From Pseudaquabacterium terrae (GTDB lineage: Bacteria; Pseudomonadota; Gammaproteobacteria; Burkholderiales; Burkholderiaceae_C): 47,423 bases of DNA. The translations under genes were made by a program, and so were the position numbers. Below, one piece after another: positions 3,804-41,161 of this stretch. Within the stretch, counting starts at the first letter, position 1. Each line of letters opens with the position of its first letter. The stretch is taken from assembly GCF_013266755.1 (NCBI RefSeq), contig NZ_JABRWJ010000021.1, forward strand, positions 1-47,423, read 5' to 3'. The notes under the pieces are model-generated. The model worked only from the letters and a program-made list of their open reading frames with translations, had not been told where the DNA came from and did not search any database.

Positions 3804-3804
3804 C

Positions 3805-4559: not shown

Positions 4560-4741
4560 GCTCATTCGCCTCGTCACGTTCCGCTTGCTCCCGCCGGCCC
4601 ATGCGGCGGGTAGCAAGTTACGTGAGGCAACGGGTCAGCTCCGGTAGCGGAACTGATGAGTCGATGCGCCGGCCAAGGTAATTGTCGTCAGCCAGATCGC
4701 CGACATCGAGGCGTTGTTGAAGGCTCTGGCCTGACCTTGAC

Positions 4742-19503: not shown

Positions 19504-20651
19504 AGAGGGACAAGCTCGCCATCAGCAAGCCAGGCGGGGCCGTGGCGCACAAGAGGCGCCAACGTACGTCGACGGCGGCAGCGGCGCCCGTGCTGGCAAC
19601 AGACCTTACCGCCATCGATGAATCGGCCTTGCTCGCCGACTTGCGCGCCCTCATTGGGTCCGCACGGCAGCGCATCGCGACCGCAGCCTTCGCCACCCAG
19701 ACCCTGCTGTGCTGGCACCTGGGGCGGCGGCTCTTGAGCGAGAACCTGCAAGGCGCGCGCGCTGAATACGGCAAGCAGATTCTCGTGACGGTGTCACGAG
19801 ATTTGGCGGCGGAGTACGGCCGCGGTTTCAGCTACGCCGAACTGGCCCGCATGGTGCAGTTCGCCCAGGCGTTCCCCGACGAAGCGATTGTCGTGACGCT
19901 GTCACAACAATTGAGCTGGTCGCACTTTCATGCGCTGCTGCCGATCAAGGACCCGCTGGCACGCGACTTCTATGCAGAGATGTGCCGCATCGAGCGCTGG
20001 AACGTGCGCACCCTGCGCCAGAAGATCAGCGGCCTGCTGTTCGAGCGCACGGCACTGTCGAAGAAGCCGCCGGCCACGGTGGCCACCGAGATCGCCAGGC
20101 TGCGCGATGGGCAGATGAGCCCTGACCTGGTGTTCCGTGACCCCTACCTGCTCGACCTGCTGGGCCTGAAGGGCGCCTACAGCGAGCGCGACCTGGAAAG
20201 CGCCATCCTGCGAGAACTCGAAGGCGTGCTTCTTGAGCTGGGCGCCGGCTTCACCTTCGTGGCACGCCAAAAGCGCATGAGCGTCGGCAAGGACGACTTC
20301 CACCTCGACCTGCTGTTTTTCCACCGCCACCTGCGCTGCTTGGTCGCCGTCGAGCTGAAACTGGAGTCGTTCCAGCCCGCGCACGTCGGCCAGATGGAGT
20401 TCTACCTGCGCTGGCTGGACAAGCATGAACGCGCGCCAGGCGAAGCGGCACCCATTGGCCTGATCTTGTGCGCATCGGCCGACGCCGAGCAGGTGGAGTT
20501 GCTGCAGCTCGACGCCAAGTCGATCCGCGTCAGCGAATACCTCACCGACCTGCCGCCGCTGCCGCTGTTGCGCGAGCGCCTGCACCACGCCATCGAGCAT
20601 GCGCGCGAAAGCGCGGCCCGCCGACTGTTCACCGACGAGGACCAATCATGA
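19500..20651 (+). CDS. DUF1016 / YhcG-like PD-(D/E)xK nuclease
   Basis: A 383-aa protein starting at GTG 19500, overlapping the hsdM stop. The N-terminal helical DUF1016_N region includes TLLCWHLGRRLLSENLQG and RGFSYAELARMVQFAQAF. The C-terminal PD-(D/E)xK nuclease fold has DLDLLFFHRHL-like residues (DFHLDLLFFHRHLRC) and the VAVELK catalytic segment. Such proteins are common companions of type I systems and are thought to be nucleases. Whether it takes part in restriction here is unknown. The longer frame from 19332 is rejected since it would overlap hsdM by 170 bp. Confidence 0.85.
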   Translation: MKRDKLAISKPGGAVAHKRRQRTSTAAAAPVLATDLTAIDESALLADLRALIGSARQRIATAAFATQTLLCWHLGRRLLSENLQGARAEYGKQILVTVSRDLAAEYGRGFSYAELARMVQFAQAFPDEAIVVTLSQQLSWSHFHALLPIKDPLARDFYAEMCRIERWNVRTLRQKISGLLFERTALSKKPPATVATEIARLRDGQMSPDLVFRDPYLLDLLGLKGAYSERDLESAILRELEGVLLELGAGFTFVARQKRMSVGKDDFHLDLLFFHRHLRCLVAVELKLESFQPAHVGQMEFYLRWLDKHERAPGEAAPIGLILCASADAEQVELLQLDAKSIRVSEYLTDLPPLPLLRERLHHAIEHARESAARRLFTDEDQS

Positions 20652-20956
20652 GCGATGGCGACGCAATCGCCGGCGGGCTGGATGCCCTGGTCGGGCAACT
20701 GCAGCGGCTGCAGCTACAGGCCGCAGAGCAATACCAGCCGGTGGTGGATGCGCTTGTGCGCGCCGGCAGCCGTGACGTGCAGCAGATCGAGCACACGCTT
20801 GATGGCCTGCTCGACTTTTGTGGTCACGAGCCGGTGCTGGAGATGTACAGGCGCTTGTGCCGCCACTACTGGGACATCGATCCGACAGCGACGGCCGACT
20901 ACGTCAAGGCCTATCGCGAACGCTGGGATAGCGAGGAAGACGGAGGACAAGCGTGA
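20648..20956 (+). CDS. Small helical protein of the restriction operon
   Basis: A 102-aa protein starting at ATG 20648 (ATGA overlap with the nuclease stop) and ending in GTGA overlap with hsdS. It is acidic and largely helical: LDALVGQLQRLQLQAAEQYQ, then VQQIEHTLDGLLDFCGHE and DYVKAYRERWDSEEDGG. No family or catalytic motif is recognised. The overlaps at both ends imply coupled synthesis with the restriction subunits, so a role in complex assembly or control is plausible. Confidence 0.7.
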   Translation: MSDGDAIAGGLDALVGQLQRLQLQAAEQYQPVVDALVRAGSRDVQQIEHTLDGLLDFCGHEPVLEMYRRLCRHYWDIDPTATADYVKAYRERWDSEEDGGQA

Positions 20957-22311
20957 TCGCCGGGCTCAAGCCCTATGCCGAGTACAGTGACTCGTGTTCG
21001 CCGTGGCTTGGGCAAGTGCCGGCCCATTGGCGCACGGTTCGCAATGGCAGCCTGTTTGGCCAACGCAGCCAGACGGGTTTTGCTCAACTGCCGATCCTGG
21101 AGGTGTCACTGAAGACGGGCGTGCAAGTGCGCGCGTTCGGCAGCGCCAAGCGCAAGCAGGTCATGGCGGACCTCGCAAAGTACAAGCGTGCGGCGAAAGG
21201 CGACTTGGTCTACAACACGATGCGCATGTGGCAGGGCGCCCTGGGTGTATGCCCGGTCGATGGCTTGGTTAGCCCGGCGTATGTGGTGGCGCGGCCGTAC
21301 GCGGGTGTCGAGCCGCAGTACTTCGCAGCGCTGTTTCGCACCGGCGATTACATGGCAGAAATCGACGCCGCGTCGCGCGGCATCGTAAAGGACCGAAACC
21401 GCCTCTACTGGGACCAGTTCAAGCAGATGCAATCGCCTTGCCCGCCGCCGGGAGAGCAGGTGGCCATCGTGCGATTTCTGGATTGGGCGAGCGGCCGGCT
21501 GGAGCGGGCGATCCGGGCAAAGCGCAAAGTGATCGCGCTGCTGACCGAGCAGAAGAAGGGGATCATCAAGCAGGCCGTCACGCTGGGCCTCGATGAAAAT
21601 GTTGAACTCAAGTCAACGGGCATACCTTGGCTCGGAGACATTCCGAAGCACTGGGAAGTCTCAAGGGTCAAGAGTGAGTTCCGCTGCCTCAACACAATGC
21701 GCGCGCCACTCAATTCAGTAGAGCGAGGGCGGATGAGGTCGCGAACCTATGACTACTATGGCGCGTCCGGAGCAATCGACAAAGTTGACGATTTTTTGTT
21801 CGACGATGAACTACTACTGATCGCAGAAGATGGCGCCAATCTGGTGCTTCGCAATCTACCGCTGGCGATCATCGCCAGCGGAAAATTTTGGGTCAACAAT
21901 CATGCTCACATCCTCAAGCCGCGACGCGGCAGCATTCGCTACTTGGCGCATTTGCTTGAGACTTTGAACTTCTGCCCTTGGATCACCGGAGCAGCGCAGC
22001 CAAAACTCACGCAGGATCGGCTACTAGCAATATCGATTGCGGTGCCACCGGGCGAAGAACAAATGGCGATAACGGCCGCTGCGGAGTTGCGCTGTCAGCC
22101 GCTCAATGATGCGCTCGCACGACTCGCACGCGAAGTCGAGTTGTTGCGTGAATACCGTACCCGCATCGTCGCCGACGTGGTGACCGGCAAGCTTGACGTG
22201 CGCGAAGCCGCAGCGACTCTGCCCGAGGCCGTAACAGCTGGCATCGAGGCCGAGCCTACTGACGAAGCTGACGACTCCGAACTCATCGACGAAGAGGCCA
22301 CTGAAGCATGA
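20953..22311 (+). CDS. hsdS: Type I restriction-modification specificity subunit
   Basis: A 452-aa HsdS with two target-recognition domains, each opened by a family signature: WLGQVPAHWRTVRNG near residue 17 and GIPWLGDIPKHWEVSRV near residue 220. The central and C-terminal conserved helices (GEQVAIVRFLDWASGRLERA, then LLTEQKKGIIKQAV; later LLREYRTRIVADVVTGKLDV) set the spacing between half sites. The second recognition domain (about 21650-22080) is visibly less GC-rich than the rest of the operon, consistent with domain swapping. The acidic tail runs to the ATGA overlap with hsdR. Confidence 0.93.
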   Translation: MIAGLKPYAEYSDSCSPWLGQVPAHWRTVRNGSLFGQRSQTGFAQLPILEVSLKTGVQVRAFGSAKRKQVMADLAKYKRAAKGDLVYNTMRMWQGALGVCPVDGLVSPAYVVARPYAGVEPQYFAALFRTGDYMAEIDAASRGIVKDRNRLYWDQFKQMQSPCPPPGEQVAIVRFLDWASGRLERAIRAKRKVIALLTEQKKGIIKQAVTLGLDENVELKSTGIPWLGDIPKHWEVSRVKSEFRCLNTMRAPLNSVERGRMRSRTYDYYGASGAIDKVDDFLFDDELLLIAEDGANLVLRNLPLAIIASGKFWVNNHAHILKPRRGSIRYLAHLLETLNFCPWITGAAQPKLTQDRLLAISIAVPPGEEQMAITAAAELRCQPLNDALARLAREVELLREYRTRIVADVVTGKLDVREAAATLPEAVTAGIEAEPTDEADDSELIDEEATEA

Positions 22312-25300
22312 ACACTGACATCAGCGAGAAGGGACTCGAATCGCTGATCGTCCGGCACATGACTGGCGCCGATGGTCTTGCTGTCTTGGCCAACTCGGCG
22401 GCCAACACCGTGGCCGAGCCGCCCGCACCCTCCGGCGGCACCGGCTACTTCGCCGGCAGCCCCAAGGATTTCGACCGTGCCCACGCGCTGGACGTGGCCC
22501 AGCTCTTCGCCTTTCTGCGCGCCACGCAGCCAGAGGCCTTCAAGAAGCTGGGCATGGCCGATGCCAACGACGCCAAGGACATCAACCGCCTGAAGTTCCT
22601 GACCCGGCTGTCGGCCGAACTGGGCAAGCGCGGTGCCATCGATGTGCTGCGCAAAGGCATCGATCACCACCCGGCCGGCCACTTCGATCTGTTCTACGGC
22701 ACGCCGTCCGAAGGCAATGCCAAGGCGGCCGCGCTGCATGCGCAAAACCGCTTCTCCATCACGCGCCAGCTGGCCTACAGCATGGACGAGACACGCCGGG
22801 CCCTGGACTTGGGCTTGTTCATCAACGGCCTGCCCATCGCCACATTCGAGCTGAAGAACAGCCTCACCAAGCAGACCGTTGAAGACGCGGTGGAGCAGTA
22901 CCGGCGCGACCGCAACCCCCGCGAGCGGCTGTTCGAGTTCGGCCGCTGCGTCGTGCACTTTGCTGTGGACGATGCCGAGGTGCGCATGTGCACCGAGCTG
23001 AAAGGCAAGGCCTCGTGGTTCTTGCCCTTCAACAAGGGCCATGAAGACGGCGCCGGCAACCCGCCCAACCCGAACGGCCTGAAGACCGACTACCTCTGGA
23101 GGGAGATGCTCACGCCGGCCGGCCTAACCGACATCCTGGAGAACTACGCCCAGATTGTCGAGGTCAAGCACCCCAAGACCGGGAAGAAGAAGCGCACCCA
23201 GGTCTTCCCACGCTACCACCAGCTCGGCGTGGTGCGGCAGGCGCTGGCCGATGTGCGCGTGCACGGCGTGGGCCGGCGCTACTTGATCCAGCACTCGGCC
23301 GGCAGCGGCAAGTCGAACTCCATCGCCTGGCTGGCTCACCAACTCATCGGCGTGAAGACCGGTGGTGAAGAGGTCTTCGACTCGGTCATCGTCATCACGG
23401 ACCGGCGCATCCTGGACGACCAGATCCAGAAGACGATCAAGCAGTTCATGCAGGTGGGCGCGACAGTGGGCCACGCCGAACGCTCCGGCGACTTGCGGCG
23501 CTTCATCGAGCAGGGAAAGAAGATCATCGTCACCACGGTGCAGAAGTTTCCGTGGGTGCTGGACGAGATCAGCGCCGTCGGCGACAAGCACTTCGCCATC
23601 GTCATCGACGAGGCGCATTCAGGGCAGGGCGGAAAGACGTCGGCGGCGATGGGCAAGGCGCTGGGGGAGGGCGTTGACACCGAAGCCGCCGGCGACGACG
23701 AGGAATGCGACGCTGAAGACGTGGTGAATGCAGCGCTGGAAGTGCGCATGGCCGCGCGCAAGATGTTGATGAACGCCAGCTACTTCGCCTTCACCGCCAC
23801 GCCGAAAAACAAGACGCTGGAGATGTTCGGCGAGCCGCTGCCGGCCGACGCCGAAGGCAAGGTCAAGCATCGACCCTTCCACAACTACAGCATGAAGCAG
23901 GCGGTGCAGGAGCGCTTCATCCTGGACGTGCTGGAACACTACGTGCCGGTCGACAGCTACTACAAGCTGATCAAGAAGATCGAGGACGACCCGGAGTTCG
24001 ACACCAAGAAGGCGAAGAAAAAGCTGCGCCGGTACGTGGAAAGCCACGACCACGCGATCCGCCTGAAGTCCGAGATCATGGTGGACCACTTCCACGAGCA
24101 GGTGCTGGCGGCCGGCAAGATTGGTGGGCAGGCGAGGGCGATGGTCGTGACCAGCGGCATCGAGCGCGCCATCCAGTACTTCCACGCGATGAAGGCCTAC
24201 CTGGTGGAGCGCAAGAGCCCGTACCGGGCCACCGTTGCGTTCTCGGGCGAGCACGAGTACGACGGCGTCAAGGTCAGCGAGGCGTCGCTCAATGGCTTCC
24301 CAAGCAAAGACATCGCCGACAAGATTCAGGACGATCCTTACCGCTTCTTGATCTGCGCTGACAAGTTCCAGACCGGCTATGACGAGCCGCTGTTGCACAC
24401 GATGTACGTGGACAAGGCGCTGTCCGGCGTGAAGGCCGTCCAGACGCTGTCGCGCTTGAATCGGGCGCATCCGCAGAAGCATGACTGCTTCGTGCTGGAC
24501 TTCCAGAACAACAGCGAGACCATTACGCTCGCCTTTCAGGACTACTACCGCGCCACGCTGCTGGCTGAGGAAACCGACCCGAACAAGCTGCACGACTTGA
24601 AGGCTGCGCTGGACGGTGCGCAGGTGTACTCGCCCGACCAAGTGCAAGAGTTCGCTGCCCTTTTCCTGGCCGGCGCCGAGCGCGACCAGCTTGACCCAAT
24701 CCTGGACTCGTGTGTGGCGGCGTACAAGGGCGCACTCGATGAAGACCAGCAAGTGGATTTCAAGGGCAAGGCCAAGGTGTTCTGCCGGACCTACGACTTC
24801 CTGGCCTCGGTGATGCCCGGTACCAACGTCGAATGGGAGAAGCTGTCGATCCTGCTGAACTTGTTGGTTTCCAAGCTGCCGGCGCCGAAGGAAGAAGACT
24901 TGGCCAAGGGCATCCTCGAAGCCATCGACATGGACAGCTACCGTGTCGAAAAGAAGGCACAGATGAAGATCGCTTTGGCCGATGCTGATGCCGAGATCGC
25001 GCCGGTGCCCACTGAAGGCGGCGGGCGGAAGCCCGAGCCTGAGTTGGACCGGTTGAGCAACATCCTCAAGACCTTCAACGACAACTTCGGCACGCTGTTC
25101 GCCGACACTGACCGCGTGGCCAAGCGCATCAGGGACGACATCGCGCCGAAGGTGGCTGCCGACAAGGCCTTCCAGAACGCCAGGGACAACACGCCCCACA
25201 CCGCGCGCATGGCCCACGACCAGGCGCTGGGCAAGGTGATGCAGATCCTGTTGAAGGACGACACGCAGGTCTACAAGCAGTTCGTCGAGAACGAATCGTT

Positions 25301-25379
25301 CAGGCGGTTTGTCGGGGACATGGTGTACCAATTGACGAACCAAGGGCCATCGCAGCCTGGGAGTTCTCCAGCGGTCTGA
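22308..25379 (+). CDS. hsdR: Type I restriction enzyme, motor/nuclease subunit
   Basis: A 1023-aa HsdR. The N-terminal PD-(D/E)xK nuclease shows LFINGLPIATFELKNSLT (about residues 170-188). The SF2 helicase motor follows: Walker A in HSAGSGKSNSI (about 330), DEAH box in VIDEAHSGQGG (about 432), motif III-like FTATPKNKTLEM, and motif VI-like QTLSRLNRAHPQK. The C-terminal helical region binds the methyltransferase core. It translocates DNA and cleaves unmodified targets. All key residues look intact, so with hsdM and hsdS the system should be functional. It ends the operon; no clear terminator follows. Confidence 0.94.
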   Translation: MNTDISEKGLESLIVRHMTGADGLAVLANSAANTVAEPPAPSGGTGYFAGSPKDFDRAHALDVAQLFAFLRATQPEAFKKLGMADANDAKDINRLKFLTRLSAELGKRGAIDVLRKGIDHHPAGHFDLFYGTPSEGNAKAAALHAQNRFSITRQLAYSMDETRRALDLGLFINGLPIATFELKNSLTKQTVEDAVEQYRRDRNPRERLFEFGRCVVHFAVDDAEVRMCTELKGKASWFLPFNKGHEDGAGNPPNPNGLKTDYLWREMLTPAGLTDILENYAQIVEVKHPKTGKKKRTQVFPRYHQLGVVRQALADVRVHGVGRRYLIQHSAGSGKSNSIAWLAHQLIGVKTGGEEVFDSVIVITDRRILDDQIQKTIKQFMQVGATVGHAERSGDLRRFIEQGKKIIVTTVQKFPWVLDEISAVGDKHFAIVIDEAHSGQGGKTSAAMGKALGEGVDTEAAGDDEECDAEDVVNAALEVRMAARKMLMNASYFAFTATPKNKTLEMFGEPLPADAEGKVKHRPFHNYSMKQAVQERFILDVLEHYVPVDSYYKLIKKIEDDPEFDTKKAKKKLRRYVESHDHAIRLKSEIMVDHFHEQVLAAGKIGGQARAMVVTSGIERAIQYFHAMKAYLVERKSPYRATVAFSGEHEYDGVKVSEASLNGFPSKDIADKIQDDPYRFLICADKFQTGYDEPLLHTMYVDKALSGVKAVQTLSRLNRAHPQKHDCFVLDFQNNSETITLAFQDYYRATLLAEETDPNKLHDLKAALDGAQVYSPDQVQEFAALFLAGAERDQLDPILDSCVAAYKGALDEDQQVDFKGKAKVFCRTYDFLASVMPGTNVEWEKLSILLNLLVSKLPAPKEEDLAKGILEAIDMDSYRVEKKAQMKIALADADAEIAPVPTEGGGRKPEPELDRLSNILKTFNDNFGTLFADTDRVAKRIRDDIAPKVAADKAFQNARDNTPHTARMAHDQALGKVMQILLKDDTQVYKQFVENESFRRFVGDMVYQLTNQGPSQPGSSPAV

Positions 25380-25605: not shown

Positions 25606-25867
25606 GTGGGCCTGGAGCAGGCGCTATGGCGCTATCTAGAGGCAGTCGCATGCGCACTCAAAAGCGGGTCCAATTCAGCATCGTCCCCCCGTTGTCAGCG
25701 GCCACGCCCAATGGATCTCTACTGCTTTTGCCCAGCCGGCTCCGCCGCGTGGAGCATGGCGCGCGCCGTCAGTGCCATATCGAGCGACTGAATTGCCCCG
25801 CTTCGGGCGCCGGCACCCTCTACGAGCATGCGAGCAATGGCACCATAGGCTGTCGACTCAGCGGCCG

Positions 25868-26786
25868 TTCGAGGGGCCCCTGAAACCCTCGGCGCAGCGC
25901 CAGGCGGTGTCGATCCTGGCCAACTTGTACGCCTTCCTGGTCGAGCAGAACTACTTGATGGGCAACCCGTGGCGGGCGGTGACGCCGCCGCGCGTGGCCG
26001 GGCCCAGCATCGACGTCGGGCGCAGCCTCACGCAGGCGCAGTGGCAGTTTGCGGAAGAGCTGGCGGCCGAGGATGCGGCTGACGCGCTGGATGACGCGTC
26101 ACAGCTCGCGGGGGAGGGCGGGGCGCTGGGGCCGCAAGCGCTGCTGGCGCTGCGGCTGCAGTTCACGCTGGAGCTGCTGTACGCGACCGGGCTGCGGCGC
26201 GAGGAGGCGGTGGCGGCCAGGGTCGATGACCTGCGGTACGTGAGGTTTCCGGTGGCCGAGGGTGAGCCGGTCCAGGGGTGGGTGTTGCACGTGCTGGGAA
26301 AGGGCCAGAAGCTGCGGGAGGTGCCGGTGCCGGTGCCGGTGCCGGACCCGGTGGTCGAGCGGCTGAAAGCGTACCTGGCGGCCCGCGGGCTGCATCCGGA
26401 GCCGGACGACGTGGGCAACCGGGGAGCGTACCTGCTGGGCAGGCACGAGGACCTGGTGGGTTAGGCTGGTGGGCAGGTGGCCGAGCGCGCCGTCGGCTTG
26501 AGCGTCGCGGTGCGGCAGGCGCGGCCGGCGGACCCGCGGGACCCGCGGGAAGGGATCGGCGCCGAGGCGCTGTACGCGCACCTGAAGCGGTTCTTCGAGC
26601 GCTGCGCGAGGAAGCTGCGGCGGTCCGACGATGTGCAAGGTGCGGAGCGGTTCGCGAAGGCCAGCACCCCCTGGCTGCGGCACACCCACGCGAGCCATGC
26701 CATCGCCACGGGCATGCCGCTGGAGATCGCGCATGCAGCGGCAGCTCGAGGCGCTGAAGCACTGTGCCACCGCGGGCCGGCGCTGA
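25868..26786 (+). pseudogene. Inactivated tyrosine recombinase
   Basis: The frame runs LKPSAQRQAVSILANLYAFL, LLYATGLRREEAVAARVDDL (catalytic Arg), LGKGQKLREVPVPVPVP and YLLGRHEDLVG, then a TAG at 26462-26464. It resumes in the same frame with ALYAHLKRFFERCARKLRRS and TPWLRHTHASHAIATGMPL. The segment with the catalytic Tyr is deleted; only a short tail, MQRQLEALKHCATAGRR, follows in another frame. The N-terminus is also missing. It is related to the intact 8095-10023 enzyme. A GTGCCG hexamer is repeated four times near 26322-26345. Confidence 0.75.
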
Positions 26787-26821
26787 CGGCAGACGTGAAA
26801 TGCGCGCGTGGCCGCTCAGCG

Positions 26822-26840
26822 CGTTCTCGGTGTGAGAACG
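26822..26840. repeat. 7-bp inverted repeat near the operon boundary
   Basis: CGTTCTC-ggtgt-GAGAACG followed eight bases later by five Ts. It could be a weak intrinsic terminator for leftward-arriving transcription or part of an attachment site beside the dead recombinase. From here to 27050 the DNA is clearly more AT-rich than the surroundings, marking a change of origin. Confidence 0.35.
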
Positions 26841-26993
26841 TCAGATTTTTGACATCGGTCGGCGATCGATTGTCGGGTTTCGATCTTCTGTTCCGTTTTA
26901 GCTTTACAGCAGGCCAACTTCCGGGGCGAAAGCCATCGGGCGGCCGAGCTGGACTTCGCTTCAACCAGGGAGGTGGGTGGTCGAGATAGAAAA

Positions 26994-27035
26994 TACTGTA
27001 TTGACATACAGTATCGTTGGTACGATATTCGTACC
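26994..27035 (+). promoter_or_regulatory. SOS (LexA) box and second operator over a promoter
   Basis: TACTGTATTGACATACAGTA (26994-27013) is a palindrome with 8-bp arms containing CTGT-N8-ACAG and matching 17 of 20 positions of the E. coli LexA consensus. Its centre contains a perfect -35 box, TTGACA (27001-27006). Seventeen bases on is GATATT (27024-27029) as -10. That box lies in a second perfect palindrome, GGTACGA-tat-TCGTACC (27019-27035), the likely site of the XRE repressor encoded in the operon. Transcription should start near 27036. Confidence 0.85.
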
Positions 27036-27069
27036 ATCGCTGTTCGAGCATCGAACCATAGAGGCCCTG

Positions 27070-27345
27070 ATGATGGAAGAAAAACGCGAACAGATCATTG
27101 CAGCGCTCGAGGCATTCTGGGCTGGGCAGACGCTGTGCGCCGAAGGCGGTGACACCGTTGACGACCTGGTTGCAGCGATGGACTCGTTCACCGCCTCGGA
27201 TGCACTGGAAGAAGTTGAGGACATCGTCGACATGGAACTGCCCACCGGCGAGGTGATCCGGCGCGGTGGCTACGAGAGCAAGGACCAGTTCGTCAACGAG
27301 CTAACTCAAAGCGTCCTGGACTACGTCGCGGAGCACCGGAAATGA
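27070..27345 (+). CDS. Small acidic protein, possibly acyl-carrier-like
   Basis: First gene of the SOS-box operon, 91 aa from ATG 27070 (27073 also possible). It is acidic and predicted helical. The stretch AAMDSFTASDALEEVEDIVD followed by MELPTGEVIRRGGY resembles the DSL...LEE...hxxP region of acyl carrier proteins, with a Ser where phosphopantetheine would attach. That likeness is only by pattern; a small antitoxin-like protein is an alternative. A frame extension back to 26977 is unlikely because it would start within the promoter. Its stop overlaps the next start (ATGA). Confidence 0.6.
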   Translation: MMEEKREQIIAALEAFWAGQTLCAEGGDTVDDLVAAMDSFTASDALEEVEDIVDMELPTGEVIRRGGYESKDQFVNELTQSVLDYVAEHRK

Positions 27346-27707
27346 ACGCCGACGACACCGATGCGCGGCGTGCGGAGATGGGGAAACGGTTGCGCGAAGC
27401 GCGCGAGTACCTGAACTTTTCACAAGACGAGGTCGCTACTGCGCTAGGACTCTCGCGGCCGTCGGTTACCAACATGGAGTCAGGCAGCCGCAAGGTCGAC
27501 TCGCTCGAACTGGACAAGCTGGCGCGCCTCTACGGTCGCAGCGTCAACTACCTTCTCACCGGCGAAGAGGAATTCAAAGCTAATGAGAAGGTCGCGTTCG
27601 CTGCCCGCGCCCTTCGCGGCCTGAGCGGGCGCGATCTCGAAGAGGTCACGAAGTTCGCCAACTACCTGCGCAACTCCGGCAGGCCGAACACGAGAAAGGG
27701 CAGGTGA
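27342..27707 (+). CDS. XRE-family repressor
   Basis: A 121-aa protein with an N-terminal Cro/C1-type helix-turn-helix (about residues 15-68): GKRLREAREYLNFSQDEVAT, ALGLSRPSVTNMESGSR, then LDKLARLYGRSVNYLL. The C-terminal 50 residues probably dimerise or contact the metallopeptidase. XRE proteins immediately followed by an ImmA/IrrE peptidase are typical repressor/antirepressor pairs, as ImmR/ImmA of ICEBs1, where the peptidase cleaves the repressor after DNA damage. The GGTACGA palindrome at 27019-27035 is its likely operator. Confidence 0.88.
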   Translation: MNADDTDARRAEMGKRLREAREYLNFSQDEVATALGLSRPSVTNMESGSRKVDSLELDKLARLYGRSVNYLLTGEEEFKANEKVAFAARALRGLSGRDLEEVTKFANYLRNSGRPNTRKGR

Positions 27708-28723
27708 TGGCGAACCTCAGGCAGCGGCTGTTGGACGCCTCGAAGAAGGCTACGCAAGTGCTCAGCGACGCGGGGACGGCCGCTCGCATCCAGAGCGGCT
27801 TCTCGCGGATTGATCCGATGCTTCTGGCTCAGGAACAAGATGTTCCAGTCATGCTGACGGAGCAGTTCGACAAATTGCTCGGAGCATTCCTGCGTGAAGG
27901 GCGCGCCGGCATCATCGTGAATTCAGATCGTCCTATCGGGATGATGCACATGACGTGTGCGCACGAGCTTGGCCACTATTTCCTTGGCCACGTGTCCACC
28001 CACGACGAGCACATCGACTACGGCGACATGGACTCCGTTACGGAGCAGGAGGCGAATCAGTTCGCCTATCAGCTGATGGCGCCGATGTGGCTGGTGGTGC
28101 GCACCGTCAAAGCCAAGGGTTGGGGAAAGACGAATCTGCTTCAGCCTGCAGTCGTCTATCAACTTTCGCTCCGGCTCGGCATCAGCTTTACGGCGATGGC
28201 CTGGGCGCTCGCCCGGCTCAAGCTGGTCACGCCTGCGCAGGCCAGCACGCTCTGCGTGGCCAAGCCTAAGGCGCTCAAGAACGATATGTTGCCGCCAGGC
28301 GTCGCTCTCGGGAAGAACGCCGACGTCTGGGTGCTGGACTCGCGCGACAAGGACTGGATCATCGAGCCGCGTAGTACCGATCGCTTCCTGTTGAACTTGC
28401 CGAGCCACGCGACAGCGGGCTACCTCTGGTCTGCGGACGAACTGGCTGGAGAAGGATTCACGCTCAGCCCTATTCTTGTGGACGCGCGCGAGCAAAAGCG
28501 CGAGGGCCCGCCGTTGGTGGGCGGCGGCGGCGAAGACAGCTACTTCTTGGCTGGTCCCGCGGTTGAGCAGCAGGGTGGAAGTGTCTCTGAGTTTCACCTC
28601 CGCGAGACGCGCCCGTGGGTCGCCAACGACGAAGCGGCAACGGAGCTCGCGCTGAAGATGCAGTTCGAAACGGTTGAAGAAGGTCTGAGCGACAGCACCC
28701 GCCTCCGGGAGATTCAGCCGTAA
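27707..28723 (+). CDS. ImmA/IrrE metallopeptidase fused to a chagasin-like protease inhibitor
   Basis: A 338-aa protein from ATG 27707 (TGATG overlap with the repressor stop). Residues 86-90 are HELGH in CAHELGHYFLGH, the zinc site of M78 peptidases, with a downstream EQEANQFAYQLM providing a Glu. From about residue 205 a second domain resembles the I42 chagasin family of papain inhibitors: NLPSHATAGYLWS corresponds to the NPTTGYxW loop, VGGGGEDSYF to the GxGG loop and ETRPW to the RPW loop, the three loops that wedge into a C1 protease active site. The next gene encodes such a protease. The metallopeptidase would cleave the XRE repressor; the inhibitor domain would restrain the cysteine protease. 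Both roles are inferred. Confidence 0.85.
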   Translation: MANLRQRLLDASKKATQVLSDAGTAARIQSGFSRIDPMLLAQEQDVPVMLTEQFDKLLGAFLREGRAGIIVNSDRPIGMMHMTCAHELGHYFLGHVSTHDEHIDYGDMDSVTEQEANQFAYQLMAPMWLVVRTVKAKGWGKTNLLQPAVVYQLSLRLGISFTAMAWALARLKLVTPAQASTLCVAKPKALKNDMLPPGVALGKNADVWVLDSRDKDWIIEPRSTDRFLLNLPSHATAGYLWSADELAGEGFTLSPILVDAREQKREGPPLVGGGGEDSYFLAGPAVEQQGGSVSEFHLRETRPWVANDEAATELALKMQFETVEEGLSDSTRLREIQP

Positions 28724-29358
28724 TGATCTCCTCCGTCATCGACCTCTCCGTCACCTTGGGTGCTGCACGGCACCAGGGGCAGCGACTGACCTGCTTGGCA
28801 TTCGCGGTGTCCGATGTGAACCGTCGGCTAGCGCCGGCGCCCGACGAACTTAGCGCTGAATTCCTTTATCAGCACGCTGGCGCAATCACTCCCGGATGGG
28901 CGGCTGGTGGCGCGCTCTACTTGTCGCCAACACTGACGGTCGCTGGCAAGCCGGGTCAACCACTCGAGGCAGACTTCCCCTATCAGGCGGCGAGCAACGC
29001 AACGGTGGCTGTGCCAGCCCAACCTGCGGGCGCGAAGATGTACAGCAGCGGTGTGCGCGAGATCAAGCGGACGTCGGACGTGGTGGCTGCCGAGCTTCAG
29101 GCCGGACACGTGGTTGGCTTGATCATCGAGAGCACGGCTACCTTGATGGCGCCCGTCAACGGCATCGTTGCGTTCACGCCAATGATCCTTCCTGGTCGAG
29201 CGCACGCTGTAGTGGCGGTAGGGCTTGGCGAGACTGCCGGCGGTGCCCAGTACGTGCGTGTGCGAAACAGTTGGGGAGCGAAGTGGGGCGACCAAGGCCA
29301 CGCTTGGTTGCCTATCGAATACATCGACCTGCACACTCTGCAGGCATTCGGGAGGTAG
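28723..29358 (+). CDS. Papain-like (C1A) cysteine protease, cytosolic
   Basis: A 211-aa protein whose ATG shares a base with the previous stop. All four papain residues are visible: Gln18 and Cys24 in HQGQRLTCLAFAV, His161 in GRAHAVVAVGLG, and Asn182 in RVRNSWGAKWGDQGHAWL. The Gln-to-Cys spacing of six equals papain's. There is no signal peptide and no inhibitory prodomain, so the enzyme would be active in the cytoplasm unless held by a separate inhibitor. The chagasin-like domain encoded immediately upstream is the obvious candidate. Bacterial C1A enzymes are usually secreted or virulence-linked, so this setting is unusual. Confidence 0.87.
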   Translation: MISSVIDLSVTLGAARHQGQRLTCLAFAVSDVNRRLAPAPDELSAEFLYQHAGAITPGWAAGGALYLSPTLTVAGKPGQPLEADFPYQAASNATVAVPAQPAGAKMYSSGVREIKRTSDVVAAELQAGHVVGLIIESTATLMAPVNGIVAFTPMILPGRAHAVVAVGLGETAGGAQYVRVRNSWGAKWGDQGHAWLPIEYIDLHTLQAFGR

Positions 29359-29360
29359 AG

Positions 29361-30200
29361 ATGGGGAAAGTGTTCGCTGAAGACCGCATCGTGCCGACGT
29401 GGCTTGCTGCGGCCAGGTACCTGCTGGAGAACGGCCGGCGCGCACGCAACCTCGTTCTCGAGATCGAACATCCGCGCTTGCTCACCGACGAAGACAGGCG
29501 TGCGATTGCTTCCGTGGATGGGGCACTCCGTCAGAACTGCGACCTGAGCGTCTTGACGGTGGCGGGCACCCTCTTTCCGCAGGGGCTGTATCGCAAGCAT
29601 GGAGCCGATGGTCTCGCCGAGCGCTATCTGAAAATCATGGAGCGCGCGAAGAAGAAGGGAACGTGGGGCACGTATGCGATGCGCATGATGGAGCGGCGCG
29701 GCCGCAAGCCAGGCATCACATTCAACCCACTTGAGCAGGTCATCTTCAAGCTTCGGCGGGCCTCAGCCCAAGGTGACGGAAACGCGTACGAGTCCGTCTA
29801 CGAGATGGGCGTGCATGTGGCTGAGGATCTCGACGGCGAGCCGTTGCTCGCGGCATGCGAGCTACCGACCTTCGATTCGGCGCTCGATGGGGGCAAGGTC
29901 TCCAACATGCCTTGTTTGAGCCACCTGACCTTCAAGCTCACTGATGCGAAGTCAGTCGATCTGACGGCGATCTATCGCTCGCACTACTACGCGCAACGCG
30001 CGCTCGGCAACCTGATCGGCCTCACGCATCTGCTGACCTTCGTCGCGGAGCAGGCCGGTATCGAAGCCGGCCGCCTGACCTGCATCTCGACGGACGCGAA
30101 CCTCGACTTTGAGAATTGGGGCGGCGCACCCGCCGGAAGAGCGCTCTTGAGCGAGCTCGAGCCTAGAACAACAGCGGCTGCGACGCCAAGCGCGGTGTGA
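29361..30200 (+). CDS. Thymidylate-synthase-like protein
   Basis: A 279-aa protein, ATG 29361 with GGGAGG 5 bases upstream. Weak but ordered similarity to ThyA: WGTYAMRM and FNPLEQVIFKLRRA in the N-half, NMPCLSHLTFKL at the place of the catalytic PPCH loop (Cys present), AIYRSHYYAQRALGNLIGLT at the nucleotide-phosphate Arg and Asn region, and CISTDANLDFENWGG near the end. It may bind or modify a deoxyuridine nucleotide; a classical housekeeping ThyA is unlikely given the divergence. Last gene of the SOS-box operon; its 3' end overlaps the converging glycosylase gene by 38 bp. The longer frame beginning at 28896 is a shadow. Confidence 0.7.
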   Translation: MGKVFAEDRIVPTWLAAARYLLENGRRARNLVLEIEHPRLLTDEDRRAIASVDGALRQNCDLSVLTVAGTLFPQGLYRKHGADGLAERYLKIMERAKKKGTWGTYAMRMMERRGRKPGITFNPLEQVIFKLRRASAQGDGNAYESVYEMGVHVAEDLDGEPLLAACELPTFDSALDGGKVSNMPCLSHLTFKLTDAKSVDLTAIYRSHYYAQRALGNLIGLTHLLTFVAEQAGIEAGRLTCISTDANLDFENWGGAPAGRALLSELEPRTTAAATPSAV

Positions 30201-30834
30201 TCTTCGTCAGGTTGTAGAGACGGCAGACTCCCGCGCGGAACTCGGTGGTACCGCCGTAGCTGGGGTGGCGCACGCACTCGACGCGCGCACCGAACTGCGT
30301 GGCGTAGCCAGCTGCGTCCTGGCCGATCGCAATGATTCGGTCGATGTGCAGCATCTGCACAAGCTCGCTGTTGAGCTCATCGACCGTGCACCGCTCCTTG
30401 CTGGTGAACTTGCGATTCGTAAACGGCTGGTCCGGCTCGTGCGGATGAAACGGGAAGACATTCCAAAGCAGCGGAGGAATGTCCAACTGTGACAGTGCGC
30501 CCCAAATCTCTGCGGCCGTCCGTTCAGCCACGACCTCGCCGCGAGTCGTCTTCGTCACGTCTGTGCCTGGGTAGAAGCGCGAGAAGAGCGGTAGATGCGC
30601 CTCGTCGGTGAGCGCCAGGCCCGTACGCCGGCCACCACGGTAACCGAGGTCGCGCCCCATCCAGATCGTCTCCGACCCGAGAGCCATGATGGCCTCAAGG
30701 TACGTGCGCAGCGCGCGGCGGCGCAGGGCCGGCGCGTTGGCGCGATCGTGAACGTCGCACTGATCGGCGTAAGGATTGAAGACGTTGGGCAGGCGAATCG
30801 TCGCCATGGCCTGGGCGAAGGATGCGGGCGTCAT
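30163..30834 (-). CDS. Uracil-DNA-glycosylase-superfamily protein
   Basis: A 223-aa protein (ATG 30834, preferred to 30894, which overlaps DUF4031). Motif 1 region: ETIWMGRDLGYRGGRRTGLA, then LTDEAHLPLF. Middle: PLLWNVFPFHPHEPDQPF. Motif 2 region: IIAIGQDAAGYATQFG followed by VECVRHPSYGG, the HPS-type loop of the superfamily. It would excise uracil or a related base, or merely recognise it. The water-activating motif is not canonical, so activity is uncertain. Cotranscribed after the DUF4031 gene (19-bp gap) and converging on the thymidylate-synthase-like gene. Confidence 0.75.
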   Translation of the reverse strand: MTPASFAQAMATIRLPNVFNPYADQCDVHDRANAPALRRRALRTYLEAIMALGSETIWMGRDLGYRGGRRTGLALTDEAHLPLFSRFYPGTDVTKTTRGEVVAERTAAEIWGALSQLDIPPLLWNVFPFHPHEPDQPFTNRKFTSKERCTVDELNSELVQMLHIDRIIAIGQDAAGYATQFGARVECVRHPSYGGTTEFRAGVCRLYNLTKITPRLASQPLLF

Positions 30835-30853: not shown

Positions 30854-31183
30854 TTAGAAGAGCGAGAGGGTCTGGCTCGAGAGCTGGGGAGCAACGTCGG
30901 GTACGTGGGGCTGGGAAGCGTCGCCTGCCATCTCGGCTTTGAGCTTGCGCGCCGCGATCAGCATCTGGGTCTTCCGCGATGCGACGGCGCCGGCGACCAA
31001 GGCGCGCTCGCGCATATCGGTCGTGACGTCGTAGTGCGGGTACGAGGCGCGATCCTGGAACCAGCTGCGGCGAAGCCCGATGCGCGCAGCGAAGGCGTGC
31101 AACTCCTCGAGCGAGTCTGCCACCACGTGGCACCACAGCTTGCCGCGCCACCTGATTCGTTCGTTGTCCACGTACACAGCCAT
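30854..31183 (-). CDS. DUF4031 family protein
   Basis: A 109-aa protein from ATG 31183 with AGGAGG a few bases upstream. It shows the DUF4031 pattern MAVYVDNERIRWRGKLWCHV, ELHAFAARIGLRRSWFQD and YPHYDVTTDMRERALVAGAV. The family occurs in phages and plasmids; its function is unknown. It is the first gene of a leftward pair with the uracil-DNA-glycosylase-like gene and diverges from the second XRE regulator across a 37-bp gap with a palindromic operator. The longer frame from 31297 would run through that regulator and is rejected. Confidence 0.78.
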   Translation of the reverse strand: MAVYVDNERIRWRGKLWCHVVADSLEELHAFAARIGLRRSWFQDRASYPHYDVTTDMRERALVAGAVASRKTQMLIAARKLKAEMAGDASQPHVPDVAPQLSSQTLSLF

Positions 31184-31550: not shown

Positions 31551-31675
31551 CAGCATCGGCGCCGCGATTGCCGCTCGCATTCCCGGCCCATTCCATTCAG
31601 AATGGGCTCTGCAGCCCGGTAGACGGAGACATCACGCAACGGGCAGCGCACGCCACTTTGAACAGGGAGGAGCTC

Positions 31676-32950
31676 ATGGCGCAAGCCACTCAGGTCAATG
31701 ACAGGCCGCACACGCCGCTTGTGTCCTATGCGGTAAAGGCGCTCAAGACGAACCAGCTGGATGGCGAACACGCTCGAGACCAGCTGCGATTCGGGCTGTT
31801 CGGCGAAATCGGCGGCTTGCTCTCGCTGGTGAAGAAGGAGCATCGCGATCTCGAGCCAGCTGAGCACAACGCGATCACCGAGGAAATCGGCGATGCGCTT
31901 TGGTATTTGGCCAACGTCGCCCATCAGTACGGCACAAGCCTGCAGGAGGCTGGCATTGCGGCGATGCACGAGCTTCAGCGAGACCTGAGCATCCAACGCG
32001 AGGTGCCGGAGGAAGTCGCGTTCGAAGAATTCGACGCGCTGCTACAGCTCTCGAAGGTCAAGCTCACGGAGCCGAACAAGCTGACTTGCATGCGGCAGCT
32101 TGCGGCGCACGCGGGTCAACTGCTCAGTTCCGCGTCGAGCGAGACGGACTTGCTCTCCGAGGCGCCGCAACGCTTGCTTGGGAGACTGCTAGCCGATCTG
32201 GCGATGGTGGCTGCTCATTTTGGGCAGCAACTGAAGGACATCGCGGACTCGAACATAAGGAAGATCCAGTCGCGCTGGCCCGAAGAGGGCGCAATGCACC
32301 TGCCACTGTTCGATGAAGGGGGCATGGAGATCGAGCAATTCCCACGCGAGTTCGACATGCACTACACCGAGGTGGTTCCAAGCAACGGTGGGGACCCCTA
32401 CGCCATCCAGCGTCTGCGTGGAATCAATATCGGCGATCGGCTCACCGACAATCGCGCCGATCCTGACGGGTACCGTTTCCACGACGTATTCCATCTGGCG
32501 TACATGACGCACTTGGGATGGTCGCCGGTGATGCGCTCCCTCTTCAAGGTCAAGCGCAAGAGCAACCCGAAGACGGATCAGAACGAAGATGGCGCTCGCG
32601 CCGGCATCATCGAGGAGGCCATCTCGACGCTGATCTTCAACCATGCGCGAGCGCGTAGCTTCTTCGCGGACAAAAAGCCGGGCCGCCTGAACTACGACCT
32701 CCTCAAGGAGGTGCACAACATGGTCAGTGGCTACGAGGTCGAACGTTGTCCATTGTGGCAGTGGGAGTTGGCAATCCTGGATGGGTTCGCTGTGTTCCGC
32801 GAGCTGAGAAAGCATGGCGGTGGCATCGTCAGCGTCAACCTCAAGACGCGGAAGCTGACGTTCGCCCAGGGCGAGCGGATCTTCGAGCCGTCGCCGCCGC
32901 CGGTGGCCCGGGAGCCGTTCGTTGGCGCGCTGCCGCCGCCTGGTCTGTAA
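31676..32950 (+). CDS. MazG-like nucleotide pyrophosphohydrolase with a C-terminal HD-like helical domain
   Basis: A 424-aa protein; ATG 31676 follows GGGAGG. The N-terminal MazG-type all-alpha domain has RFGLFGEIGGLLSLVKKEHR and EEIGDALWYLANVAHQYG, the EExxE...EExxD metal sites that hydrolyse NTPs to NMP and PPi. A middle helical region (about 140-215) resembles a second, degenerate copy. The C-terminal domain (YRFHDVFHLAYMTHLGWSPV, IIEEAISTLIFNHARA, YEVERCPLWQWELAILDGF) has His and Asp residues of possible metal-binding type. Substrate unknown; in this setting a deoxyuridine or damaged nucleotide is possible. Confidence 0.75.
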   Translation: MAQATQVNDRPHTPLVSYAVKALKTNQLDGEHARDQLRFGLFGEIGGLLSLVKKEHRDLEPAEHNAITEEIGDALWYLANVAHQYGTSLQEAGIAAMHELQRDLSIQREVPEEVAFEEFDALLQLSKVKLTEPNKLTCMRQLAAHAGQLLSSASSETDLLSEAPQRLLGRLLADLAMVAAHFGQQLKDIADSNIRKIQSRWPEEGAMHLPLFDEGGMEIEQFPREFDMHYTEVVPSNGGDPYAIQRLRGINIGDRLTDNRADPDGYRFHDVFHLAYMTHLGWSPVMRSLFKVKRKSNPKTDQNEDGARAGIIEEAISTLIFNHARARSFFADKKPGRLNYDLLKEVHNMVSGYEVERCPLWQWELAILDGFAVFRELRKHGGGIVSVNLKTRKLTFAQGERIFEPSPPPVAREPFVGALPPPGL

Positions 32951-33146
32951 GCTCGGCTCCGAGCAGTCTGCAGATGCGCGCCGGTATGCGCTTCAAGTGG
33001 GCATCTTGCTGAGCGGTCCCGGGTGTCGACCTCGCGGCCACTCGGGTGCAGTTGGCCAACCAGCTGCGCAGCCTGCTGCAACGTTCTGGCCGGGCGCCGC
33101 GGTAGCTCCAGCGTGTATCCTGTCGTAACACATGAAGGGGCGGGCA

Positions 33147-34397
33147 ATGGACAAGCGGCTAACGATTCTGTGGTCACTCGTTGCCGTGACGCCCCTGGCC
33201 GCCGCGCACTCGGGCGGCACTGACAAGAACGGGTGCCACACCAACAGGTCGACGGGCCAGTTCCACTGCCACACCCCGCCACCGCCACCGCCACCCCCGC
33301 CTCCGCCCCCGCCGGCTCCGGCTCCGGCTCCAAACAAGCCGCCGAGCGTGCAACTCACGAGCCCGGTGACGGGATCGCACTTCCCTTCCTCTGGTGAGAT
33401 TTCGGTTGCGGTGAGTGCCTCAGACCCGGACGGATACGTCACGCGGATCACGTTCTACCGCGGCACCACGATGCTCGGAGACGACACCACATCCCCGTTC
33501 TCGTTCGTGTGGCGCAATCCGGCCGCCGGAACGCACAGTCTGACCGCTGTGGCCACGGACAACGCGGGCGCGACGACAAGATCGTCAGCGGTCTCGGTCA
33601 CAGTCGCTGCGCCACCAGCTCCGCCCCCGCCGCCTGCTCCCCCGCCACCTCCAGCAGGCCCCCCTGAAGTGGCTGTGAAGCCACCTGCCCCTTCGTCTGC
33701 GTGCTCGACAGTGAGCGTGGTCTCGGTGGTCGACGGGGACACGCTTCGCGTCCGATCAGGAGGTGGTCAGATCGAGAGCGTCCGGCTCAATCAGGTCGAT
33801 GCCCCAGAACGCAGCCAGACTTTCGGACCTGAAGCAGCGGCATGTCTGGCGCGCTTGGTGGCGATTGGGCCGATCTCGATCTGTCGCGATGGGCGCGACA
33901 AGTACGGCCGCACGGTTGCGAGCGTGACGGCCTATGGCAACAACGTGGCCGAGCGGATGATCGCCGAGGGGTGCGCTTGGGCATATACCAAGTACCTGGA
34001 GGCGAACAGCTTTCTCCCGTCCCTAGAGCAGGCCGCGAGGCAAGCGCGTCGCGGCCTATGGGCCCTGGACGCGGTGGAGCCCTGGCTATACAGATCAGGC
34101 AGGGCTCCTGTCACGTACAGCCCCACGACGAACCAGTGGGCGGTCGCAATCCACGCGTCAAACCGAGGGACGGTCTTTGATCGCGTCTTTGACTGGGCCG
34201 AACACCAGTACCCTGACCTGCTGGTGGGTGGGACCACGAATCAGGCGCTTGGCGACGGAACCATCTATCGGTGCTACGCGAACAACTTCTGCATCGGCTA
34301 TCGAGATGGCATCTTCCTAACCTACGATGGGCGCGTCATGAGCCAAGTCGGCACCGAAGCGCAGTTGCTACCGCAGGCTGAGGCCCAGGGCTTTTAG
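33147..34397 (+). CDS. Secreted staphylococcal-nuclease-like protein
   Basis: A 416-aa exported protein. ATG 33147 is preferred (GGGG upstream; signal MDKRLTILWSLVAVTPLAAA). Next comes a small HSGGTDKNGCHTNRSTGQFH segment, a Pro-rich linker, a Big-type immunoglobulin-like domain (about 70-150), a second Pro-rich linker and an SNase domain (about 180-320). In that domain VRLNQVDAPERSQTFG and DKYGRTVASV supply the Arg, Glu and Arg of the active site. A C-terminal domain begins FDWAEHQYPDLLVGG and ends YDGRVMSQVGTEAQLLP; it resembles the domain after the signal in the 1169-3415 galactanase. Predicted periplasmic or extracellular nuclease. Confidence 0.85.
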   Translation: MDKRLTILWSLVAVTPLAAAHSGGTDKNGCHTNRSTGQFHCHTPPPPPPPPPPPPPAPAPAPNKPPSVQLTSPVTGSHFPSSGEISVAVSASDPDGYVTRITFYRGTTMLGDDTTSPFSFVWRNPAAGTHSLTAVATDNAGATTRSSAVSVTVAAPPAPPPPPAPPPPPAGPPEVAVKPPAPSSACSTVSVVSVVDGDTLRVRSGGGQIESVRLNQVDAPERSQTFGPEAAACLARLVAIGPISICRDGRDKYGRTVASVTAYGNNVAERMIAEGCAWAYTKYLEANSFLPSLEQAARQARRGLWALDAVEPWLYRSGRAPVTYSPTTNQWAVAIHASNRGTVFDRVFDWAEHQYPDLLVGGTTNQALGDGTIYRCYANNFCIGYRDGIFLTYDGRVMSQVGTEAQLLPQAEAQGF

Positions 34398-40146: not shown

Positions 40147-41115
40147 ATGGACAAGCACCCCTGGAAGATCTACGACCCCGCCGTCAAACCGAGCAAGGCC
40201 AAGGTGAAGCTGCCACCGCCGCCGCCCTGGCGTCAGCCGGGCGCGGCAGGTCGCGCGGTCATCGCCAAGACCTTCCAGGCAGCACCCGAGATCGTCAACG
40301 CTGTCAACGTCGCGCTGCACTTGCGACGGCCGCTGCTCGTGACCGGAGAGCCCGGGACCGGCAAGAGCTCGCTCGTGTATTCGGTGGCGCAACGCCTCGG
40401 CCTGGGCGAGGTGCTGGTGTGGGCGATCAATTCGCGCTCGACATTGTCCGACGCGCTGTATCGCTACGACGCCCTCGCGCGGCTGCAGCAGATCCAGGCG
40501 CGCAACGTCGCGGGAACGAAGCGAGGCGAGCCTGTGGTCGACGAGGGCACGGAGCTCGGCCAGTTCATTACGCTGGGGCCGCTCGGCAGTGCGCTTGCTG
40601 CTGCCGATGCCCCGCGCGCCCTGCTCATCGATGAAATCGACAAGAGCGACGTCGACCTGCCCAATGACTTGCTGTCGGTGCTCGATACCGGCTCGTTCCC
40701 GATCGCCGAGTTGCAACGTGTTGCCGATCGATTCCAGGACGTGACGGTGCGCAGCGCGGTCGGGCAGGTGAGGGTGGCCGAGGGCGAAGTCTCCTTCACC
40801 GAGTACCCGTTCATCGTGATGACCAGCAACGGCGAACGCGACTTCCCTGCCGCATTCCTTCGCCGTTGCGTCCAGTGCCGCATGCCGGACCCCGACAACG
40901 AGCTCTTCGACATCGTCCGCGCCCACTTGCCCAAGCTTGCCAAGGATCCCAAGCTCGGCGAGCTGATCGAGACCTTCAAGAGCGGGCGCGAACAGGGTGG
41001 CCTGGCGACTGACCAGCTTCTCAATGCGCAGTACCTGGCGCCGCTGCGGGAAAGCCTGACGAAGGACGAGCGGGACGACATGCTCGCGGTGCTGTTCAAG
41101 AGCCTGACCGGCTGA
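40147..41115 (+). CDS. MoxR-type AAA+ ATPase
   Basis: A 322-aa ATPase. Walker A is LLVTGEPGTGKSSLVYSV (about residue 66), Walker B ALLIDEIDKSDVDLPND (about 157), sensor 1 FIVMTSNGERDFPAAFLRRC (about 222), which includes the arginine finger region. MoxR ATPases remodel partner proteins together with vWA-domain proteins. Here the vWA partner is probably the N-terminal part of the next gene's product. Sits between the VMAP-like and subtilase genes. Confidence 0.9.
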   Translation: MDKHPWKIYDPAVKPSKAKVKLPPPPPWRQPGAAGRAVIAKTFQAAPEIVNAVNVALHLRRPLLVTGEPGTGKSSLVYSVAQRLGLGEVLVWAINSRSTLSDALYRYDALARLQQIQARNVAGTKRGEPVVDEGTELGQFITLGPLGSALAAADAPRALLIDEIDKSDVDLPNDLLSVLDTGSFPIAELQRVADRFQDVTVRSAVGQVRVAEGEVSFTEYPFIVMTSNGERDFPAAFLRRCVQCRMPDPDNELFDIVRAHLPKLAKDPKLGELIETFKSGREQGGLATDQLLNAQYLAPLRESLTKDERDDMLAVLFKSLTG

Positions 41116-41161
41116 GCCGCCTGCCGAGGGGCTCCATCCATATCCACCGACAAGCATCGCG

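Follow-up and report, generated by a model that had tools for sequence, protein, structure and literature searches.

Immune operons, including those of the cyclic-oligonucleotide-based anti-phage signaling systems (CBASS), can be controlled by CapH/CapP, in which an XRE repressor adjoins an ImmA-type protease and a palindrome lies in the promoter; CapP has been reported to be activated by single-stranded DNA and to cleave CapH (PMC13373217). In the PprI-DdrO system of Deinococcus an IrrE protease likewise cleaves a repressor after DNA damage, and the abstract describing it mentions no protease/inhibitor or base-enzyme payload (PMC10904395). Two further groups are relevant: chagasin and ICP (MEROPS family I42), which carry GYxW and RPW loops, and the thymidine hypermodification sets of phages M6, ViI and phi W-14, which contain a thymidylate-synthase-like enzyme, MazG and HMUDK_hel, a protein resembling 5-hydroxymethyldeoxyuridine (5hmdU) DNA kinase (HMUDK). 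Traits of each are found in an operon of Pseudaquabacterium terrae and its relatives, which is described here from a 47,423-base stretch of DNA (the window) that makes up the entire contig C14 of an 8.04 Mb genome. The operon encodes an acyl carrier protein (ACP)-like protein, an XRE repressor, an ImmA metallopeptidase fused to an I42-like domain, a papain-like C1A protease and a thymidylate-synthase-like protein, ThyL. Unlike CapH/CapP, the ImmA protein here carries I42 and the payload is not CBASS; unlike PprI-DdrO as abstracted, a protease/inhibitor pair and base enzymes are present. The inhibitor domain differs from chagasin and ICP, whose matched chains are 105–132 amino acids (aa), in being part of a metallopeptidase whose gene lies next to that of the presumed target. 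In contrast to the phage sets, the base enzymes lie on plasmids and chromosomes beside ImmA/XRE and ACP, and in the window a protein resembling uracil-DNA glycosylase (UDG) replaces HMUDK.

Judged from sequence, the operon may be a mobile, probably damage-responsive unit whose payload makes or handles C5-modified deoxyuridine in DNA and to which a protease/inhibitor module has been added; as a whole this reading has about even chances. Base modification as the function of the payload is somewhat favored, and the payload is probably under CapH/CapP-type control.

A sequence-only reading of the window had described five coupled genes at 26994–30200, all of whose open reading frames (ORFs) were recovered, with stop-start overlaps and a 2-nt gap before ThyL. 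It had also staked its pairing of protease and inhibitor on the two genes recurring together in other genomes, and they do: an ImmA-I42 gene adjoins a C1A gene at 54 distinct loci from several bacterial phyla and one haloarchaeal plasmid. All five genes occur in the order ACP-XRE-ImmA-C1A-ThyL in 49 of these, and counted singly XRE is present in 54, ThyL in 53 and ACP in 50. The exceptions are L023, which is without ThyL; L043, whose start coincides with a contig end; L052 and L059, in which ThyL precedes XRE; and L052, L059 and L066, for which no ACP was found by profile, an ACP-like ORF being visible by eye in L066 and perhaps L052. Many loci are short contigs or come from metagenome-assembled genomes (MAGs), so that absences make these counts lower bounds, and MAG-derived taxon names may be in error. 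L003 duplicates L022; it was excluded from the 54 while being kept in the alignments.

The loci were gathered by several searches. With C1A as query, tblastn found 16 of 72,556 plasmid records, and each of the 12 that were opened had the order given above; ThyL is split in two of these plasmid copies, L015 and L018. Among bacterial and archaeal genomes 432 relatives were found. Of the best 80, the operon was present in 39, including all of the first 37, and the other 41 had a distant C1A only; in these best 80, C1A scores were at least 127 bits with the operon and at most 110 without it. The window, L004 and one viral contig (L181) are also included in the 54. With ImmA as query, tblastn returned 30 plasmid records, 16 of them already found with C1A; of the 14 others eight were opened, six having the same operon without C1A and I42 and two (L229, L230) being CBASS loci with no I42 and no C1A above noise. 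The C1A and ThyL proteins of the window had no match in 50,697 phage records, a viral scan with ThyL gave one locus, and no I42 or ThyL was present among the 80 viral C1A loci listed. As separate observations, ThyL matches fall in two ORFs in L015, L018 and L024, and a second ThyL-related family (L187, L201–L218; ORFs of about 500–790 aa, from some Pseudomonadota) occurs without operon partners in short stretches. This other family, with its long ORFs, was set aside, as were L188–L196, which match at the level of ordinary ThyA; L015, L018 and L038 were left out of the ThyL alignment as split or cut, L023, L024 and L043 gave no usable ThyL row, and L223 is truncated by the end of its contig.

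The regulators are the most readily placed part of the operon. The XRE protein matches Pfam HTH_3 (9.2e-13) and the ImmA protein Pfam M78 (1e-6), and their best PADLOC matches are capH (1.5e-11) and capP (4.4e-15), respectively; the earlier view of an ImmA peptidase beside its partner repressor is thus borne out as a pair resembling CapH/CapP. The XRE gene directly precedes the M78 protease gene, and His86, Glu87, His90 and Glu113 of ImmA are present in 55 of 55 rows, Glu113 being the distal Glu and, on our reading, a ligand. A family profile built from the window sequence and those of 37 relatives, 38 in all, matches IrrE and CapP (7t5t) in the PDB over the N-terminal part of ImmA. Upstream of the ACP gene the inverted repeat ATGTyGGA-NNN-TCcrACAT recurs: 29 of 51 homologous promoters have 7 or more of its 8 pairs (2.8 expected from shuffles) and 10 have all 8 (0.08 expected); this set of promoters lacks the loci without a profile-found ACP and still includes the duplicate L003. 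Four of the 29 (L009, L018, L033, L035) differ in sequence, and the remaining 22 promoters fall below 7 pairs. Lying over the likely -10 in the window, the palindrome is the probable XRE operator, which at the level of sequence places an operator at the operon's own promoter, as for CapH/CapP. Autoregulation of the operon by XRE/ImmA is very likely.

Control by LexA had been proposed for the operon as a whole, and of this claim one part stands. The window copy does have a LexA-like box, which overlaps a TTGACA that is likely the -35; in the 8.04 Mb genome its 20-base form is confined to one place, and the reversed control occurs 0 times. By itself the short form, CTGTN8ACAG, means little, since 0.43 occurrences are expected for a window of the same composition. 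Upstream of lexA in this genome there is a box with one mismatch, which is weak evidence since three such matches occur in the 3.2 kb locus against 0.71 expected. The box is confined to 1 of the 51 promoters, that of the window, and other LexA forms are near chance there (GTTCN7GTTC 0, GAACN4GTTC 1). LexA was therefore rejected as a general control of the operon, its conserved element being the different palindrome described above, and because the other 50 promoters lack the box, LexA control is plausible for the window copy only.

The C-terminal part of ImmA had been read as a chagasin-like inhibitor, and this assignment gained support. Over this part the same family profile matches amoebiasin-2 (1.7e-12), ICP and chagasin, and thus finds the I42 family by sequence. 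The structural model of ImmA-I42 (mean pLDDT 85.3, pTM 0.87) is helical in its N-terminal part, apart from a short sheet, and all-beta at 207–319, with strands at 207–210, 226–233, 240–242, 252–255, 275–282, 293–301 and 312–319; residues 102–108 and 259–273 are below 50 in confidence. In the GYxW loop, Gly and Trp are present in 55 of 55 rows and Tyr in 50. That I42 is a spurious match was rejected given the profile matches and the co-occurrence with C1A.

The C1A protein matches Pfam PF00112 (Peptidase_C1, 4.7e-10), and its catalytic Gln, Cys, His and Asn, already recognized as intact in the window, are invariant in 55 of 55 rows. An inhibitory propeptide and a secretion signal are usual in papain-type enzymes. 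In this family no propeptide was found, as 22–46 residues (median 24) precede the catalytic Cys, and no strongly hydrophobic N-terminus was seen on a crude scale. The ImmA and C1A genes overlap or lie at most 10 nt apart in 52 of 54 loci, and this tight spacing together with the missing propeptide fits with an inhibitor supplied by the immediately preceding gene. The strongest indication is the distribution of the domain: I42 is present in 59 of 59 loci with C1A (one of which, L198, has about 96% DNA identity to L044, L047, L049 and L050) and in none of the 11 where the operon lacks C1A. ThyL searches blind to C1A, in overlapping sets of 369, 398 and 385 genomes, gave 12 strong loci, six with both C1A and I42 (including the window), five with neither and one cut by a contig end; such a perfect split of the 11 decided loci has a chance of 1 in 462 if the loci are independent, which they are not. 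On the ImmA tree at least two changes of C1A/I42 state are needed, although long branches make this unsure, and both types of locus occur, once each, in genome G1180. We regard this co-occurrence as the best sign that ImmA carries I42 on account of C1A, and it is highly probable from these sequence data that I42 inhibits C1A.

The same pairing could also be read as a toxin (C1A) and its antitoxin (ImmA-I42), retained since cells that lose the plasmid die or grow more slowly, with the base enzymes as separate neighbors. The strict pairing of I42 and C1A, the missing propeptide and the close gene spacing agree with such an addiction module, as do the plasmid settings (16 plasmid records and a Rep3-type initiator in the window). 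However, ThyL is also present in 53 of 54 loci and the pair lies between XRE and ThyL in 49, the would-be antitoxin forms part of a regulatory protein, and a free-standing pair should occur alone, though the searches were not designed for such pairs; addiction is accordingly rated as improbable.

The 11 loci without C1A and without I42 indicate that the protease is not the core of the operon, and C1A was rejected as core effector since these loci keep the operon without it; protease and inhibitor together are probably an optional module. This bears on the original proposal, which makes the protease the chief effector, released through SOS derepression to abort infection. The intact protease, the fused inhibitor and the CapH/CapP-like regulators are all as that proposal needs, and defense-type neighbors occur in some loci (caspase-family and Shedu genes), as do type I restriction genes in the window. 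It has against it that a LexA box is found in a single promoter, that the form without C1A exists, and that the recurring base-pathway genes are left unexplained; we consider it equally improbable. A protease-driven abortive step, as an addition to base modification, is a more tentative possibility than the base payload itself.

The payload is thus best approached through ACP, ThyL and their neighbors. The ACP-like protein as a single sequence has no Pfam, PADLOC or NCBIfam match, and only weak unnamed PHROG matches; the Ser of its DS(L) motif is present in 51 of 51 rows, the family profile matches ACPs weakly (best 0.0015), and the records of relatives name the product 'acyl carrier protein'. 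The protein is called ACP-like because of these three lines of evidence. For ThyL, TIGR03283, the archaeal-type thymidylate synthase, is matched in the C-terminal half (5.9e-12), its 45.5 bits falling below the curated cut-off of 174.55; the Pfam thymidylate synthase match (0.3) likewise falls short. Thymidylate synthases have a catalytic Cys and an Arg and Asn of the dUMP site, and the corresponding Cys, Arg and Asn of ThyL are invariant in its alignment (49 of 49 rows).

Genes of a base pathway recur around the 54 loci, with MazG in 43, a UDG-like protein in 33, HMUDK in 16, a phosphopantetheinyl transferase in 18, dCTP deaminase in 12 and DUF4031, by profile, in 6. MazG-like enzymes could remove unmodified nucleotides (PMC7824862), and the substrate of the phage 5hmdU DNA kinase is 5hmdU in DNA (PMC6449724). 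HMUDK never occurs with the UDG-like protein in these loci, five of which have neither; among all 70 loci, including later and shorter ones, the UDG-like protein is present in 37, HMUDK in 28 and both in 0. All 11 loci without C1A have HMUDK, the protease-free form of the operon being ACP-XRE-ImmA-ThyL-HMUDK-MazG, and HMUDK_hel was found in 7 of 10 and 2 of 10 of two sets of neighbor proteins picked as candidates. A PDB profile search with HMUDK gave chance-level matches only. The UDG-like copy of the window has no Pfam match and is 41–57% identical to 10 relatives, of which the one in L010 matches PF03167 (3.4e-6). ThyL is fused to AcpS in L052 and HMUDK to MazG in L057, and the records of relatives include the names acyl carrier protein, thymidylate synthase and holo-ACP synthase; fusions and names support one pathway. 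A metallophosphoesterase with a thymidylate-synthase-like part was also seen (L011, 9471–11654), of a family present in 7 of 54 loci, including L017 and L018.

An ACP in this setting leads to another explanation for C1A, namely that it is a papain-fold acyl- or aminoacyl-transferase of the base pathway, moving a group from holo-ACP to the ThyL product with I42 as an on/off switch. Papain-clan acyl-ACP transferases exist, such as BtrH of butirosin synthesis. The first gene of the operon does encode an ACP-like protein with an invariant phosphopantetheine-type serine, and the phosphopantetheinyl transferases of 18 loci and the ThyL-AcpS fusion point the same way. Conversely, the protease-type Gln/Cys/His/Asn set is fully conserved, I42 domains are known protease inhibitors, and 11 loci keep XRE, ImmA, ThyL, HMUDK and MazG without C1A, so that the transferase step would be dispensable. 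Transfer by C1A is considered unlikely, though less so than addiction or a protease-centered operon.

Several findings weigh against the reading of a damage-responsive base-modification operon with an added protease/inhibitor module. On the side of the payload, the ThyA match of ThyL is weak (profile best 0.0026; Pfam 0.3) and restricted to the C-terminal half, and Arg206 is no longer invariant once two ThyL rows from loci without C1A are added. Phosphopantetheinyl transferases accompany 13 of 16 HMUDK loci and 3 of 33 UDG-like loci, and profiles for phosphopantetheinyl transferase, dCTP deaminase and HMUDK found nothing in the window, so that a chromosomal enzyme would have to serve its ACP. 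As for the module, the single ImmA sequence falls below the Pfam cut-off for I42 (3.5e-4; 21.2 bits against 27.2), the middle I42 loop varies and is modeled with very low confidence (Gly272 being invariant), and the RPW loop is not universal (Trp 53, Pro 49 and Arg 45 of 55 rows). The 11 loci lacking C1A and I42 show that the pair is not needed for core function, the LexA box is absent from the other 50 promoters of the set, and the link to defense comes only from the neighborhood.

If the operon does work as a base-modification unit with an added guard, its steps can be outlined. XRE would bind the palindrome over the -10 and shut the operon, with release of LexA as a second lock in the window copy. 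DNA damage or phage replication would activate ImmA, and we infer from the likeness of the two pairs that ImmA cleaves XRE as CapP does CapH. A modified uracil may then be made, altered or excised, as the protein families suggest, by ThyL, MazG, the UDG-like protein (in other loci HMUDK) and the ACP, which a phosphopantetheinyl transferase would load; the gene for such a transferase lies nearby in some loci. C1A, made without a propeptide, would be kept inactive by the I42 domain of the ImmA protein translated just before it, in line with their co-occurrence. More speculatively, ImmA-I42 could be consumed or turned over, freeing C1A to cut proteins as a late, probably suicidal step; the I42-capped protease would then be an added fail-safe.

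The layout of the locus is given in Table 1. The contig carrying the operon is probably a plasmid and has a Rep3-type replication initiator at 13761–15215; a terminal overlap, as a sign of a circular plasmid, was looked for at the contig ends and none was found. Type I restriction genes and integrase-like pieces flank the operon on one side and the UDG-like gene on the other. The former comprise methylase, specificity and restriction subunit genes at 17194–25379, upstream of the operon, followed by an integrase-like ORF at 25772–26989 that has a weak Pfam match and is apparently split in pieces. Farther along the window are a staphylococcal-nuclease-like protein with a bacterial Ig domain (33132–34397) and an AAA ATPase with, after it, a subtilase-family protein of 1442 aa (Peptidase_S8; 40147–45490), a possible defense pair. 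In other loci, caspase-family genes are upstream of the operon on rhizobial plasmids (L015, 650–1843; L017, 1352–3274; L018, 1325–3250), and a family of 430–471-aa proteins is encoded shortly before the ACP gene in L025, L026, L030 and L037 (about 3600–5160), the L026 member being without a Pfam match. C1A and I42 matches share one ORF in L082 (2380–3840), one of the 41 genome loci without the operon, from a Chloroflexaceae MAG, with no other profile match on the 3.9 kb contig.

Table 1. Features of the operon and the adjacent genes in the window (positions in bases of the window).
Feature	Position	Strand or placement	Remarks
LexA-like box TACTGTATTGACATACAGTA	26994..27013	over likely -35	one place in 8.04 Mb genome
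Promoter-like TTGACA - 17 nt - GATATT	27001..27029	+	by eye
Probable XRE operator TGGTACGA-TAT-TCGTACCA	27018..27036	over likely -10	8/8 pairs
ACP-like protein, 91 aa	27070..27345	+	Ser39 in DS motif
XRE repressor, CapH-like	27342..27707	+	Pfam and PADLOC matches
ImmA/IrrE M78 metallopeptidase, CapP-like, with I42	27707 (or GTG 27704)..28723	+	HEXXH residues 86-90; I42 ~206-319
C1A papain-like protease without propeptide	28723..29358	+	Gln18/Cys24/His161/Asn182
Thymidylate-synthase-like protein ThyL	29361..30200	+	Cys185/Arg206/Asn217
UDG-like protein, convergent	30163..30834	-	ORF opens 30894; start estimated from relatives
DUF4031 protein	30854..31183	-	ORF opens 31297; start by eye; PF13223 1.3e-26
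MazG-type protein with MazG_C domain	31670..32950	+	Pfam PF18722 4.8e-76

The regulator and the base enzymes are of known kinds, and Iyer et al. 2013 in NAR reportedly treated ThyA/HMUDK/MazG-type systems, so earlier prediction of parts is possible. For the ImmA-I42 fusion with C1A, and for an ACP in such a setting, we could not find a description in the literature searched, whose coverage excluded most subscription papers. It is possible, if doubtful, that the loci form a system of a new kind, in which ACP-dependent enzymes would place a C5-substituent on deoxyuridine, a UDG-like protein or HMUDK would act as reader and a papain-like protease as guard, its inhibitor being fused to the damage sensor such that one molecule would both open the operon and hold the protease. 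If the pairing of I42 and C1A does work in the way it suggests, bacteria and archaea would use chagasin-type inhibition intracellularly and place a papain-like protease under a DNA-damage sensor, a wiring we know of nowhere else. The wider operon would be a regulated base-modification system outside phages, widespread and often plasmid-borne, and the natural versions without the protease pair, together with the two alternative base-acting partners, would make its parts testable by comparison.

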